From positions 1-37,648 of the forward strand of contig JAFSJO010000091.1 in assembly GCA_017449415.1 (NCBI GenBank): a stretch of 37,648 nucleotides of DNA, written 5' to 3'. The first letter of the stretch is position 1. The number at the start of each line of letters is the position of its first letter. The translations under genes were made by a program, and so were the position numbers. Positions 28,136 to 32,663 of the stretch are shown in pieces. The DNA is from Synergistaceae bacterium. Its GTDB lineage: Bacteria > Synergistota > Synergistia > Synergistales > Aminobacteriaceae. The notes under the pieces are model-generated. The model was not told the DNA's origin, did not search any database, and saw nothing but the letters and a program-made list of their open reading frames with translations.

Positions 28136-29827
28136 ATGACGGACTTTAACTCCAGCATGATCATAGCCGGTTGCGTGCTGGCATCAGTGCTTTGCGTGGG
28201 CGTTCAGTTCTTCATCAAGCGGACGCTCGAATACCGTCAGTACGGATATTTTAGGGACATAGTGCTGGCGGGGGCGTGGCTGGTGCTGGCGTTGTGGTTC
28301 GGGAGCAACGAAGCTCGTGTGGTCGTCTGCGGAGCTATGCTCGCGTGCTTCGCCGGGATAGCTGAGAGCATACACGGCTCTGTGAGCTGGAGATTTCTAT
28401 ATCCCATCATCGGCGCGCTGTGTGCGTGGTTTGGGCCGTCGGTGAATTTCATAAAATTTCCTGACGGCGAATATATCTACCTTGATCCCGCGTTCTCTTT
28501 CATTGCCGGGACGGTCTGGTTCAGCTTCTTTCCTTTCATATTTCGATATCTCGACGAGGTCGCGGGTCTCGTGGGTCATGTCTTGGCCGTAACGTTCGTG
28601 CTGATGTTGGCGGCCTGCATAGCTACGGGAGGCGGCGATATCTTCATGACGTTCGCGGGGCTTGCGTTGCTCATGGCGTTCTGGAGCAGGTTCGGGAACT
28701 TGTATCGACAGTCGGGACGCGCAATGGCTTCGATGTGGGGCTTCATCGTCGCGGGGACTTCCATAATAAGCAACTCTAAAGGCATCGTGTTGAGTACGGT
28801 CTTGTTCTTGTCGCTCGGGCTGTTCGCCATTCCGATCACTGAAATATTTTTGGGCTTCGTCCGACAGTTGCTCTTCGATACTCAGATGCCGGAGAGGACG
28901 GGCGGCGCGGGAAAAATTTACTCGCAAATGTTGAGCGGCGGTGTCGAACACCCTGAGGCCGTTCAGTCTGTCGCTGGTCTGTGTGCTGTAACGAGCATCG
29001 CCGCGGCGTGGGAGCAGTGGCTCATAGCCGGGATCATCATCACTGCCGTGGTCGTGTTCAGACATTCGAGACATAAGAGAGAGGGTCTGCCTCCGACGCT
29101 GTGGGGCGTGAAGTTCGACAACGTCTCAATGAACTACGCGATCTCGAAGGCTCGGGGCTTGCTCTCGAACCCGGAGAAAGACACCGCGCAGCTCGTCGTA
29201 ACTCTCAATGCTACAGGCATGGAGGAGACAGTGAAGAGCCGGGAATTTTTCGAGATCGTCAAGAATGCTTCCATGGTCTTGGCCGACGGGTGGGGGCTTT
29301 GCATGGGATTGAAGCTCATGGGAACGCCTGTTCAGGAGCGAGTGGCCGGGATCGACTTCGCCGAACAACTTTGCAGGCTCGCTTCGGCTGAGGGTTGGCC
29401 GGTATATTTCTGCGGAGCCGCCGGAGACACTTCGAGGCAATGCGCCATGATATTGAGCGAAAGATTTCCCGGGCTGATCGTCGCAGGAGCGCGAGACGGA
29501 TACTTCGACATCAACAACACCGACATAGCCGACGAGATCGCGAACAGCGGCGCGAAGATCCTCTTAGCGGCAATGGGACAGCCGAGGCAAGAGAGATTTG
29601 TCCACATTCATCGCGAGAGATTAGGCTCGATGCTCTGCGTTGGAGTCGGCGGGGCGTTCGATGTCCTCTCGGGCAAGCTCAACCGTGCGCCGGTGTGGGT
29701 TCAGAAGATCGGCTTCGAGTGGCTCTATCGAATGTTGCAGGAGCCAGTGAGGTGGCGGAAAAATCTCAGCTTAATAACGTTCGTCTTTCGGATACTCGCG
29801 ACACGGATCGGGATATATAAGAAGTAG
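28136..29827 (+). CDS. Fusion of degenerate WecA/MraY-like membrane domain and WecG/TagA glycosyltransferase
   Basis: A 563-residue protein. Residues about 330-563 form a WecG/TagA/CpsF glycosyltransferase: VVTLNATGMEE, VLADGWGLCMGLKLMG, ERVAGIDFAE, AMGQPRQERF, CVGVGGAFDVLSGKLNRAPVW and GFEWLYRMLQEPVRW. Such enzymes add the second sugar, often ManNAc, to a lipid-linked sugar in envelope polymer synthesis. The first 320 residues have about ten hydrophobic segments and follow the layout of polyprenyl-phosphate GlcNAc-1-phosphate transferases, but the active-site acids look lost: AES (76-78) for DD, YLDEVAG (138-144) for DGIDG, RQSG (191-194) for GDSG, and KIYSQML (260-266) for HLHHRLL. The domain may bind the lipid carrier or a partner. 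It follows serS by two bases. Confidence 0.85.
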   Translation: MTDFNSSMIIAGCVLASVLCVGVQFFIKRTLEYRQYGYFRDIVLAGAWLVLALWFGSNEARVVVCGAMLACFAGIAESIHGSVSWRFLYPIIGALCAWFGPSVNFIKFPDGEYIYLDPAFSFIAGTVWFSFFPFIFRYLDEVAGLVGHVLAVTFVLMLAACIATGGGDIFMTFAGLALLMAFWSRFGNLYRQSGRAMASMWGFIVAGTSIISNSKGIVLSTVLFLSLGLFAIPITEIFLGFVRQLLFDTQMPERTGGAGKIYSQMLSGGVEHPEAVQSVAGLCAVTSIAAAWEQWLIAGIIITAVVVFRHSRHKREGLPPTLWGVKFDNVSMNYAISKARGLLSNPEKDTAQLVVTLNATGMEETVKSREFFEIVKNASMVLADGWGLCMGLKLMGTPVQERVAGIDFAEQLCRLASAEGWPVYFCGAAGDTSRQCAMILSERFPGLIVAGARDGYFDINNTDIADEIANSGAKILLAAMGQPRQERFVHIHRERLGSMLCVGVGGAFDVLSGKLNRAPVWVQKIGFEWLYRMLQEPVRWRKNLSLITFVFRILATRIGIYKK

Positions 29828-29851
29828 AGGGTTATCGAAGCCCTCTTTTTT
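29826..29851 (+). terminator. Intrinsic terminator after the glycosyltransferase gene
   Basis: AGAGGG (29826-29831) pairs with CCCTCT (29841-29846) around a nine-base loop, followed by a run of T. It begins within the stop codon of the glycosyltransferase gene and ends at the stop of the convergent pseudopilin gene. Confidence 0.8.
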
Positions 29852-30518
29852 AGTCCGCGAATTTCAACACGTGCATCAAGACGAGTCGGCCGCCGTTATA
29901 CGGGAAAGTTTTACTTCCGTTCGTGCCGAGGAGCCCCGCGCTGGCGGCTCGTGATTTCAGTTTGTTTTGCAGAGATATGTTGTCGGTGTCCTCGTCAGCG
30001 ACACGATAGACGACAAACCAGTTCTTATTATTGTTGTTATTGTTGCCGGTGATGTTCGAGCCATTCTTCAAAGCAATATCGCCGACCTGCTCCGTGCATA
30101 GCTGACCCTGCCTGTTTGAGGGGTTGATCCTCAACTCGTCGCCGCCGTTCATATACTTGCGTAGGCTCGACTGATTGTTGTAGGCCGTGCCGGACGTTTT
30201 GTAGCCGATGATTTCTCCGTTCTTTATGACAGGCACTTGATAGCCTGTGAAGTACGTCTGGATGTCCTCCCATTTGTTCGGGCCGACCTTAATCCCGTAG
30301 GGGCTGGGACACGTGGGGTCGATCATGTCCATGTTGTCGGTGTACCATGAGATAGCGGCGGTCTTCAAGTTCCTCATGTCGCTGATTATCTTCGCGGCCT
30401 TCGCTGAAGAGACTGCCTCGGTACTCGACAACATCATCATGGCTGCCAACACTCCGACCACTACGATAGCTATCAAAAGCTCGACGAGCGTGAAAGCCCT
30501 GCGTCTTGAACTTTTCAA
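29850..30518 (-). CDS. Type II/IV pseudopilin-like protein
   Basis: A 222-residue protein with a class III signal: MKSSRRRA, then FTLVELLIAIVVVGVLAAMM, with cleavage expected between Ala8 and Phe9 and the conserved Glu at mature position 5. Ala rather than Gly at -1 is less usual but tolerated. The single N-terminal helix is followed by a globular domain I do not recognise; it contains six consecutive Asn and two Cys. The frame extends upstream to a TTG at 30560, but that overlaps a TATAAT box; the TTG at 30518, with AGGGAAG seven bases upstream, is preferred. It may act in a type II secretion or type IV pilus machine encoded elsewhere. Confidence 0.82.
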   Translation of the reverse strand: MKSSRRRAFTLVELLIAIVVVGVLAAMMMLSSTEAVSSAKAAKIISDMRNLKTAAISWYTDNMDMIDPTCPSPYGIKVGPNKWEDIQTYFTGYQVPVIKNGEIIGYKTSGTAYNNQSSLRKYMNGGDELRINPSNRQGQLCTEQVGDIALKNGSNITGNNNNNNKNWFVVYRVADEDTDNISLQNKLKSRAASAGLLGTNGSKTFPYNGGRLVLMHVLKFAD

Positions 30519-30551
30519 ATCAATCACTTCCCTACATGAACACTTTTCGCA

Positions 30552-30557
30552 ATTATA
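30552..30557 (-). promoter_or_regulatory. -10 box for the pseudopilin gene
   Basis: A perfect TATAAT on the minus strand about 34 bases before the TTG start at 30518. No clear -35 hexamer is seen. The position argues against the longer reading frame from 30560. Confidence 0.4.
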
Positions 30558-30641
30558 CAACGAAAATATCTGCCCTTGGATGTGGTAAACTTAACGAAAA
30601 ATTTTCAATCATTAAATTTTCAAGGGAAGGTGTTTTTTCAA

Positions 30642-32663
30642 ATGGGGGCACGTAGACCCGAAGACACACGGAGCTTCGCATTATGTGCGCATGGAGGAGC
30701 AGGCAAAACTTCTTTGGCCGAGGCAATGCTCTTCGACAACGGCAACATCACCCGCATGGGTTCAGTTCAAAGCGGCAACACCGTCAGCGACTTCCAATCC
30801 GAAGAACAGAAACGCAACATCTCAATCAGCACGTCGTTAATGACGTTGGAGCGCAAGGGCAAGACTTTCTATGTACTCGACGCGCCCGGCTACGCTGACT
30901 TCACCGGCGAGATGAGTGCGGCTATCAGAGTTGCAGACACGGCTGTCATTCTCGTCAGCTCGGTCGGCGGCATCGAAGTTCAGACCAGCAAGGCTTGGGA
31001 GTACGCGAGCCACCACAACGCGCCCGTAGCTTTCGTGATCTCCAAGATGGACAGAGAGAACGCGGACTTCGATAAGGTTCTCGATGATATCAAGTCGCAG
31101 TTCTCGCCCAACGCTCTGCCGGTGTTCCTGCCCGTCGGCTCGGCGGACAAGTTCAGCGGAGTTATCGACGTTCTGCACAGCGACGAGGCCGCAAGCGCAA
31201 AGGAAGCCTTGATCGAAGCGGCGGTTGAAATGGACGATGCTCTGATGGAGAAGTATCTCGAGGGTGAGACGATCCCCGAGGCCGACATCGAAGCAGCTTT
31301 GAAGAAAGCTATCGCCGCCAAGCGTATCATGCCCGTGTTCGCGCTGTCATCGAGCGTCAATATCGGCGTGAATGAGTTCATGGACTTCGTGGCGGATTAC
31401 TTCCCGTCGCCGGTTGATATCGGAGCGGTCGAAGCCTTTGAGGGCGAAAAGAAAATCACCGTCGAACCCAAGACCGACGCGCCATTCTCAGCTCTTTGCT
31501 TCAAGGTCATGGCTGACGCATTTGTCGGCAAACTTTCATTCATTCGCGTCTACTCCGGCACTCTCTCATCAGAGGGCACGAGCATCTACAACGTCGGCAA
31601 GGGCGAGGACGAGAGAATAAGCTCATTCAAGCTCATGACGGGCAAGGACGGCAAGGACGTTAAAGAAGTCATAGCCGGAGACATCGTGGCGATCCCGAAG
31701 CTGTCGAGCGCAAAGGTCGGAGATACTCTCGCGACGAAAGGCGGCTTTGCGGCTCAGTTCGCTCCGATCGAGTTCCCCAAGCCGGTCTACAGTGTGGCCG
31801 TCATAGCCAAGACCCGCGAGGACGAAGACAGGCTCAGCAACGCGATCTCGAAGATCCTCGAAGAAGACTGCTCGCTGACGTTCGAGAAGAACGCCGAGAC
31901 CCGCGACAATGTTCTCTCAGGCATGGGCGATATGCACATTGATATCGTGCTGTCGAAGATGAAAGAGAGATACAAGGTCGACCTCGAAACAAAGACCCCG
32001 CAGGTGCCTTACCGCGAGACGATCCGCAAGATGGCCGAGGCTCAGGGCAAGCACAAGAAGCAGTCCGGCGGTCATGGTCAGTATGGCGATGTTTACATTC
32101 GCTACAGGCCGCTTGAAAGGGGCGCGGGCTTCGAGTTCATCGACAGCGTTGTCGGCGGCGCGGTACCTCGCAACTTCATTCCGGCGGTCGAAAAAGGCTT
32201 GCGCGAGTACATGACGGCAGGACCTTTGGCGGGCTTCCCGGTCGTTGACTTCAGCGCGGAGCTATATTACGGCTCGTATCACGATGTCGACAGCTCCGAA
32301 ATGTCGTTCAAACTCGCGACGCGTCTTTCGTTCCGCAAAGGCATCATGGACGCAAGCCCGGTGCTGCTCGAACCCGTGATGGACGTTGAGGTTACAGTGC
32401 CGGAAAGATTTATGGGCGACGTAATGGGCGACTTCAACTCACGCCGCGGTCGCATCATGGGCATGGAGGGACACGGCAAACTGCAGGTCGTGAAAGCTCA
32501 GTGTCCGCTCGCTGAGATGTTCAGGTACGCGATCATTCTGCGCTCGATGACCTCAGGCGAGGGATCGTTCTCGATGGAATACTCGCATTACGAGGAAGTC
32601 CCGGCCGATATCGCCAAGAAAGTCATCGCGGCTCACAAGAAAGACGAAGAGGACGAAGAGTAA
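30642..32663 (+). CDS. EF-G-like translational GTPase paralogue
   Basis: A 673-residue protein with EF-G domain order and a clear domain IV (KKQSGGHGQYGDVYIRYRP, GGAVPRNFIPAVEKGLREYM) and domain V (GDFNSRRGRIMGMEGHGK). Its G motifs are unusual: AHGGAGKTS (16-24), RNISI (58-62) for RGITI, DAPGYADF (80-87) with Tyr84 at the catalytic His position, and SKMD (134-137) for NKMD. It is thus one of the divergent EF-G-like proteins rather than the housekeeping factor; the role is unknown. GGAAGG precedes ATG 30642; the frame continues upstream to 30576 without a better site. The tail is acidic (KKDEEDEE). Confidence 0.9.
   Translation: MGARRPEDTRSFALCAHGGAGKTSLAEAMLFDNGNITRMGSVQSGNTVSDFQSEEQKRNISISTSLMTLERKGKTFYVLDAPGYADFTGEMSAAIRVADTAVILVSSVGGIEVQTSKAWEYASHHNAPVAFVISKMDRENADFDKVLDDIKSQFSPNALPVFLPVGSADKFSGVIDVLHSDEAASAKEALIEAAVEMDDALMEKYLEGETIPEADIEAALKKAIAAKRIMPVFALSSSVNIGVNEFMDFVADYFPSPVDIGAVEAFEGEKKITVEPKTDAPFSALCFKVMADAFVGKLSFIRVYSGTLSSEGTSIYNVGKGEDERISSFKLMTGKDGKDVKEVIAGDIVAIPKLSSAKVGDTLATKGGFAAQFAPIEFPKPVYSVAVIAKTREDEDRLSNAISKILEEDCSLTFEKNAETRDNVLSGMGDMHIDIVLSKMKERYKVDLETKTPQVPYRETIRKMAEAQGKHKKQSGGHGQYGDVYIRYRPLERGAGFEFIDSVVGGAVPRNFIPAVEKGLREYMTAGPLAGFPVVDFSAELYYGSYHDVDSSEMSFKLATRLSFRKGIMDASPVLLEPVMDVEVTVPERFMGDVMGDFNSRRGRIMGMEGHGKLQVVKAQCPLAEMFRYAIILRSMTSGEGSFSMEYSHYEEVPADIAKKVIAAHKKDEEDEE

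Follow-up and report, generated by a model that had tools for sequence, protein, structure and literature searches.

What can a WecA/MraY-like membrane domain still do for a cell once its catalytic residues are gone, and why should it be fused to the enzyme that takes the next step? This question is raised by one gene in a 37,648-nucleotide stretch of Synergistaceae DNA (contig JAFSJO010000091.1 of assembly GCA_017449415.1; hereafter the window). The open reading frame (ORF) runs on the forward strand from an ATG at 28136 to a stop at 29827, as the initial annotation had placed it, and encodes a 563-residue protein in which such a domain precedes a WecG/TagA glycosyltransferase. That annotation, made from the sequence alone, proposed that a former first-step enzyme had lost catalysis and now serves as a lipid-carrier-binding or scaffold module for the second-step transferase behind it. 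Our analysis leads to a similar view: a membrane-integral WecG/TagA transferase with a pseudo-WecA half as its anchor and probable acceptor dock, a reading to which we assign a probability of roughly 0.6. We are far more confident of its foundation, that a catalytically dead domain of the PNPT fold is joined to a TagA-type transferase predicted to be working.

A WecA/MraY fold without its active site

Residues 1-325 of the window protein match no Pfam or NCBIfam family, and the proposed kinship with WecA and MraY therefore needed other tests. We collected about 70 homologues from the same order and took 44 fusion sequences as the family alignment. PF00953, the family of the PNPT superfamily, gave a weak match in only three of these 44 (best E 0.0036), and the profile of the N-terminal domain found nothing among the PDB sequences even at E 10. 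Comparison with profiles of intact WecAs and MraYs from the same order was more productive. The Synergistota WecA profile aligned with the N-terminal domain over 213 columns (hhalign E 7e-7, score 54.8), against best scores of 21.4 for 20 column-shuffled WecA profiles and 21.0 for the reversed profile, so that the order of landmarks on which the initial annotation relied is borne out with clean controls. The MraY profile of the order aligned at E 0.002, including across the segment that carries a hairpin between transmembrane helices (TM) 4 and 5.

Structure predictions built from the family's own alignment agree with this assignment. The AlphaFold2 model of the full protein has a mean pLDDT (predicted local distance difference test) of 89.6, and that of the N-terminal domain alone a pLDDT of 84.5 with a predicted template modelling score of 0.82. 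A Foldseek search of the PDB with the latter returned no entries but those of MraY and DPAGT1 (best E 9e-6, template modelling score to MraY about 0.6-0.7) before the first unrelated entry at E 0.26; the comparison with MraY and WecA structures that had been suggested as a check thus found that fold and no other. Within the order, the kinship of the domain to WecA and MraY is visible only by fold comparison and profile-profile comparison.

Four genomes outside the window's order, belonging to a family of the same phylum that we designate f11, carry a more telling version of the fusion; from its kinship label, f11 would be a second class of the phylum. The f11 fusions are about 33% identical to the survey query and 26-29% identical to the window protein. 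PF00953 is above its gathering score on the N-terminal domain in three of the four (E 4e-9 to 3e-8) and just below it in the fourth (E 7.6e-5). In profile comparison these domains reach E 1e-12 to WecA and E 1e-22 to the window-type domains, and in tblastn they match, at up to 7e-12, proteins from Firmicutes and other groups, several of which carry the annotation 'MraY family'. These results together settle PNPT descent by ordinary sequence evidence. Chance similarity among multi-helix membrane proteins could appeal to the missing Pfam and NCBIfam matches to the window domain itself, but it is contradicted by the structure, by the controlled profile comparison and by the f11 sequences above the Pfam cut-off, and we consider it refuted. 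By its sequence relatives and its predicted structure, the domain is a degenerate WecA/MraY-type phosphoglycosyl transferase in both descent and fold, and the idea of a former first-step enzyme fused to the second-step transferase is strongly supported.

The predicted domain has 11 helices, one more than the ten of MraY, the extra one being the last (residues 295-311). This helix would bring the chain back to the cytoplasm, where the UDP-sugars are, and the positively charged HSRHKR that follows it fits such a topology. Between the first two helices (2-28 and 33-55 in the model) the TM1-TM2 loop is a four-residue turn.

To map the active site we used the intact WecA of the window genome as reference, with equivalences between WecA and MraY assigned by motif. 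MraY activity depends critically on D117, D118 and D265, the last of which binds Mg; the uracil pocket is formed by K70, G194, L195, D196 and F262 (PMC6606608). The profile alignment to the WecAs of the order places GYLDD on GIAES (E77-S78), NLIDGMNG on RYLDEVAG (D140 on D140, position 143 on A143), FLGDGG on QSGRAM (D190 on R195), GGIPVVDT on FAIPITEI, and HLHH on KIYS (260-263). The DDD triad is therefore absent, being E77/S78/R195 in the window protein and, across the 44 fusions, Gln or Glu, then a non-acidic residue, then mostly Glu, Lys or Arg. At the metal site itself (WecA D190) the family has E in 17, K in 11, R in 6, T in 3 and D in 2. The uracil-stacking Phe (WecA F187, MraY F262) is replaced by Gln or Arg in the fusions; the WecA Asn143-or-Asp site (MraY D196) is Pro in 35 of the 44 and Ala in the window; and the HxHH of loop E has become xxYx, with an invariant Tyr. 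What survives of the DGxDG motif is its first Asp, D140, found in all 44.

The initial annotation had held that every catalytic acid or His that could be aligned was replaced. This is correct for the DD pair, the metal-binding Asp and HxHH, and the readings of DD as ES and of HLHH as KIYS agree with the profile alignment. It is not correct for D140: in equating DGIDG with LDEVAG, the annotation recognised the loss at the second position and overlooked the retained first Asp. Its pairing of GDSG with RQSG was a few residues out of register, although the loss of the metal-binding Asp stands. The annotation had named two refuting outcomes, no structural match to MraY/WecA and conserved acids at the active site after proper alignment; both were tested and neither refuted it, and the dismantled site is confirmed apart from D140. 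Among the intact WecAs of Synergistota, the second Asp of DGxDG is an Asn (NLIDGMNGL) in 16 of 23, with the rest of the active site complete, as in that of the window genome (L002:1279-2160, C57).

Besides the helix framework, the domain retains D140, G144, P233, E236, Y262 and G269, and nine of its residues are invariant in the 44 fusions (D41, D140, G147, R185, W201, G216, Y262, G269 and H272). Synonymous sites are saturated even within the genus, leaving only nonsynonymous divergence (dN) to be compared; within the genus, the dN of this domain is similar to that of the catalytic domain. Because of the nine invariant residues and this similar dN, we regard the domain as a maintained module and not a decaying one. 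The f11 fusions also lack the DD pair and HxHH, and catalysis was therefore lost before the two lineages (classes) split. One deep-branching f11 fusion (L187:1240-2487, genome G145) still has LGD at the metal site while lacking the DD pair and HxHH, which suggests that the metal-binding Asp may have gone later than these.

That polar residues such as D140 and Y262 are invariant where the active site used to be could also be taken to mean that the domain is still an enzyme, with an active site rebuilt from D41, D140, R185, E236, Y262 and H272 and a polyprenyl-phosphate substrate. We consider this improbable, given that the DD pair, the metal-binding Asp, the uracil-stacking Phe and HxHH have all been replaced, that the TM1-TM2 loop has shrunk to a short turn, and that an intact WecA is already there for that reaction.

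The transferase half and the proposed role of the membrane domain

The C-terminal half is a readily recognised member of its family, with matches above cut-off to PF03808 (WecG/TagA; E 7e-56, residues 378-542) and TIGR00696 (E 8e-49). The TarA equivalog NF041710 scored 140.8 bits against a cut-off of 350, and the family models therefore do not fix the sugar donor. Foldseek matched the domain to TagA/TarA in the PDB (7mpk/5wb4). The proposed base of TagA is D65; its T37 positions N-acetylmannosamine (ManNAc), and its R221 belongs to a C-terminal appendage that binds the membrane as well (PMC6493773). T37, N39, D65, R83, Q167, E168 and R221 of the Thermoanaerobacter italicus enzyme align with T356, N358, D384, R402, Q485, E486 and R539 of the window protein, all of them invariant in the 44 fusions except N358, which is Asn or Asp. 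Judged from this alignment, the TagA half keeps every proposed catalytic residue.

The fusion is present in 147 of 151 sampled Synergistota genomes, the four of f11 included. Genomes without a match are mostly incomplete; one of them, the 82% complete G142 of family f12, lacks a WecG match. Each of the 81 near-complete genomes of the order has exactly one PF03808 protein, always the fusion ORF, split in one genome between contig ends. A profile scan with a nine-sequence alignment found at least 47 loci, all titled Synergistota or Synergistota genera; our survey outside the phylum rests on this one scan and is incomplete to that extent. We rejected a frame-shift or assembly artefact on the strength of the 147 genomes. 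We likewise rejected the fusion as a replacement for MraY or WecA, both of which are intact elsewhere in the genome, as the initial annotation had suggested checking for WecA.

These genomes also encode the enzyme families expected around a TagA step. At least two PF00953 proteins, typically MraY and WecA, occur in 79 of the 81 near-complete genomes; WecB is above cut-off in 79, with wecB often adjoining wecA; and the CsaB model is matched in all 81, above its cut-off in 59. In the window genome upp, wecA and wecB lie together, mraY is at another locus, and csaB is a fragment at a contig end. This csaB (L075) forms an apparent pair with a preceding ORF of several membrane helices, and in several relatives (G010, G030 and G040) csaB is near mraY. 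The window genome, the only one examined for S-layer homology (SLH) proteins, has one, with a signal peptide, an SLH motif, a helical region and a likely barrel, the layout of OmpM/SlpA. The families of WecA/TagO, WecB/MnaA, TagA, CsaB and SLH proteins thus co-occur in one genome. Outer-membrane tethers of the OmpM/SlpA type have been reported for Synergistetes among others (PMC9388160), and in Paenibacillus TagA, MnaA and CsaB, acting after the TagO step, make the pyruvylated ManNAc-GlcNAc unit that SLH domains bind (PMC6030368). From this co-occurrence we think it probable that the fusion belongs to the pathway of an SLH-binding polymer in Synergistota.

Such a pathway would begin with the separate, intact WecA, which would place GlcNAc-1-phosphate on undecaprenyl phosphate, while WecB would make UDP-ManNAc. 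The glycosyltransferase family 26 (GT26) half, kept at the cytoplasmic face by the 11 helices, would add ManNAc to GlcNAc-PP-undecaprenol; the lipid-linked disaccharide would then be built into a polymer, CsaB would pyruvylate its ManNAc, and SLH-domain outer-membrane proteins would bind it. The fusion could instead serve another glycan, an ECA-like (enterobacterial common antigen) or O-antigen-like polymer containing ManNAc or ManNAcA (N-acetylmannosaminuronic acid). Escherichia coli WecG, which serves enterobacterial common antigen, is a precedent, and no glycan gene stands next to the fusion. We think this unlikely, since one WecA, one WecG, WecB and CsaB are repeatedly found in the same genomes of a phylum for which SLH/OmpM-type tethers have been reported.

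In the proposed pathway, the pseudo-WecA half would serve both to anchor the transferase and to dock or present its acceptor, lipid-PP-GlcNAc. We arrive at an acceptor-only domain because the nucleotide and metal site has been dismantled while the helices of the lipid groove, from TM5 to TM9 and loop E, have been kept. The lipid-carrier-binding or scaffold module of the initial annotation is for this reason still the most plausible description, drawn as it is from the pattern of retention and loss across the fold; that the dead half actually binds or presents the acceptor we put at somewhat short of an even chance.

The domain might, alternatively, bind no ligand at all and merely hold the transferase in the membrane near WecA. 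Eleven helices with a lost active site are what one would expect of such an anchor, and anchoring alone would explain the fusion, because TagA is otherwise only peripherally membrane-bound (PMC6493773). Less expected of a plain anchor are the preservation of the whole PNPT fold, with the TM4-TM5 hairpin and the loop E helix, and the nine invariant residues, several of which occupy former active-site positions; we judge this explanation rather unlikely. A further alternative, which we rank slightly lower, is that the pseudo-WecA half heterodimerises with the intact WecA, so that a WecA-TagA complex hands on the lipid intermediate, or that it regulates WecA. Nearly every genome that bears the fusion has an intact WecA, MraY crystallises as a dimer (PMC6606608), and pairing is compatible with a domain that is both anchor and dock. 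Plain anchoring and WecA pairing are both live alternatives to acceptor docking.

Several observations weigh against the reading that we favour, of an anchoring and docking pseudo-WecA half in an SLH-polymer pathway. The CsaB score is below the curated cut-off in 22 of the 81 genomes, and CsaB and the SLH protein are encoded away from the fusion. Other TagA enzymes work with a small C-terminal appendage and without a membrane domain (PMC6493773); the fusion keeps a TagA-type appendage, and a second anchor is therefore not strictly needed. The case for docking, finally, is argued from the retained helices. More tentatively still than docking itself, we suggest that the pseudoenzyme is at least as old as the common ancestor of two deep Synergistota lineages and has become obligatory to the next enzyme as its acceptor-binding subunit, which would take GlcNAc-PP-undecaprenol from the active WecA, with which it may pair, and present it to the TagA domain.

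The initial annotation knew of no system built in this way, and in open-licence papers on WecA-WecG fusions, MraY-family pseudoenzymes and Synergistota WecG/TagA we found no description of this protein. As far as the open literature shows, the parts were already known, and what is new is the pseudoenzyme and its near-universal fusion in the phylum. Within the essential MraY/WecA/DPAGT1 superfamily it is apparently a pseudoenzyme not described before, conserved over nearly a whole phylum and missed by Pfam in most members. Since the chemistry has been lost in evolution and the fold has not, the domain may allow lipid binding to be told apart from catalysis in a fold of major importance as an antibiotic target, and it lends itself naturally to the question of how lipid-linked sugars are passed between the first and second membrane enzymes. 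It is also a candidate for the polymer step behind the SLH-type outer-membrane attachment of Synergistota, which has apparently been little studied in the phylum.

The gene and its neighbours

Features of the fusion gene are collected in Table 1. Riboflavin genes and serS are found upstream of the fusion, and CBS, V-ATPase, ybaB or recR genes downstream; the gene immediately upstream we take, by eye, to be serS. We sought an operon link of the fusion with csaB, wecA or wecB and found none, no glycan gene adjoining it and its neighbours being housekeeping genes. Convergent to the fusion gene in the window is a lone gene (29850-30560, reverse strand) with a type IV prepilin-like N-terminus (RRRAFTLVELLIAIVVVGVLAAM) and no pilus operon seen beside it, followed on the forward strand by a gene for an EF-G-like protein of 695 residues (30576-32663). 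In several Synergistota the fusion is closely preceded by a divergently oriented gene of a family of very variable length (ORFs of about 200-1000 residues; L126:4532-5908, reverse strand, and relatives, about 20 loci), the single scanned member of which had no Pfam match.

Table 1. Positions in the window of the fusion gene, its domains and its diagnostic residues.
Feature	Coordinates	Strand	Basis
Whole gene, pseudo-WecA/WecG(TagA) fusion, 563 residues and stop	28136..29827	+	Sole PF03808 protein of the window genome
Membrane domain (1-311), PNPT (WecA/MraY) fold, 11 predicted TM helices, catalytically degenerate	28136..29068	+	Model helices; Foldseek to MraY/DPAGT1; hhalign to WecA
E77-S78, site of the DD pair (WecA D90-D91; MraY D117-D118); Q/E then non-acidic in the family	28364..28369	+	Profile alignment
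Beta-hairpin TM4-TM5 (105-115), conserved GPxIxFIxxPxGEYxYL; similar segment at the same place in the MraY of the window genome	28448..28480	+	DSSP of models; alignments
LDEVAG (139-144), DGxDG remnant; D140 kept in 44/44, second Asp lost	28550..28567	+	Profile alignment
Q192-R195, FxGD remnant; uracil-stacking Phe (MraY F262) to Q/R, Mg-binding Asp (MraY D265) to R195 here and E/K/R in most of the family	28709..28720	+	Profile alignment; residue roles from PMC6606608
KIYS (260-263), HxHH remnant in cytoplasmic loop E; second His to Tyr262, invariant in 44/44	28913..28924	+	Profile alignment
TM11 (295-311), extra last helix, predicted to return the chain to the cytoplasmic side ahead of the glycosyltransferase	29018..29068	+	Models; topology inferred
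WecG/TagA (GT26) domain (320-563), with C-terminal appendage	29093..29824	+	PF03808 E 7e-56; TIGR00696; TagA crystal structures 7mpk/5wb4
T356, TagA Thr37 (donor positioning), invariant	29201..29203	+	Alignment to TagA
D384, TagA Asp65 (proposed catalytic base), invariant	29285..29287	+	Alignment to TagA
Q485-E486, TagA Gln167-Glu168, invariant	29588..29593	+	Alignment to TagA
R539, TagA Arg221 (leaving-group Arg, from the appendage), invariant	29750..29752	+	Alignment to TagA

Comparison with known systems

With the WecA/PNPT superfamily (PF00953) the membrane half shares its fold, the order of its landmarks, the first Asp of DGxDG, the Pro and the acid of GGxPxxD (P233 and E236) and the Gly after the HxHH loop. 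E. coli WecA has 11 helices. Unlike WecA, the fusion is without the DD pair, the metal-binding Asp, HxHH and the uracil-stacking Phe, its TM1-TM2 loop is nearly deleted, and its C-terminus runs on into a glycosyltransferase. MraY (PDB 4j72, 5jnq, 6oyh, 6oyz) and DPAGT1 (5o5e, 6bw5) are its best structural matches, and MraY shares the TM4-TM5 hairpin segment; the differences are that identity is about 14%, that the DDD triad is absent, and that the same genome has a separate gene for MraY.

The C-terminal half matches T. italicus TagA/TarA (5wb4, 7mpk; GT26; PMC6493773) at E 2e-43, with the proposed catalytic residues and the appendage Arg kept. The T. italicus enzyme is peripheral, without a TM domain, whereas its Synergistota counterpart is tethered by the pseudo-WecA domain. 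At the level of the pathway, the closest parallel is the TagO-TagA-MnaA-CsaB route to the pyruvylated secondary cell wall polymer of Paenibacillus alvei (PMC6030368), whose enzyme families are the same as those in the Synergistota genomes. In P. alvei, however, TagA is free in the cytosol or peripheral and csaB-tagA-tagO form one operon (PMC6030368), whereas the Synergistota genes lie scattered and their TagA is fused to the pseudo-WecA domain.
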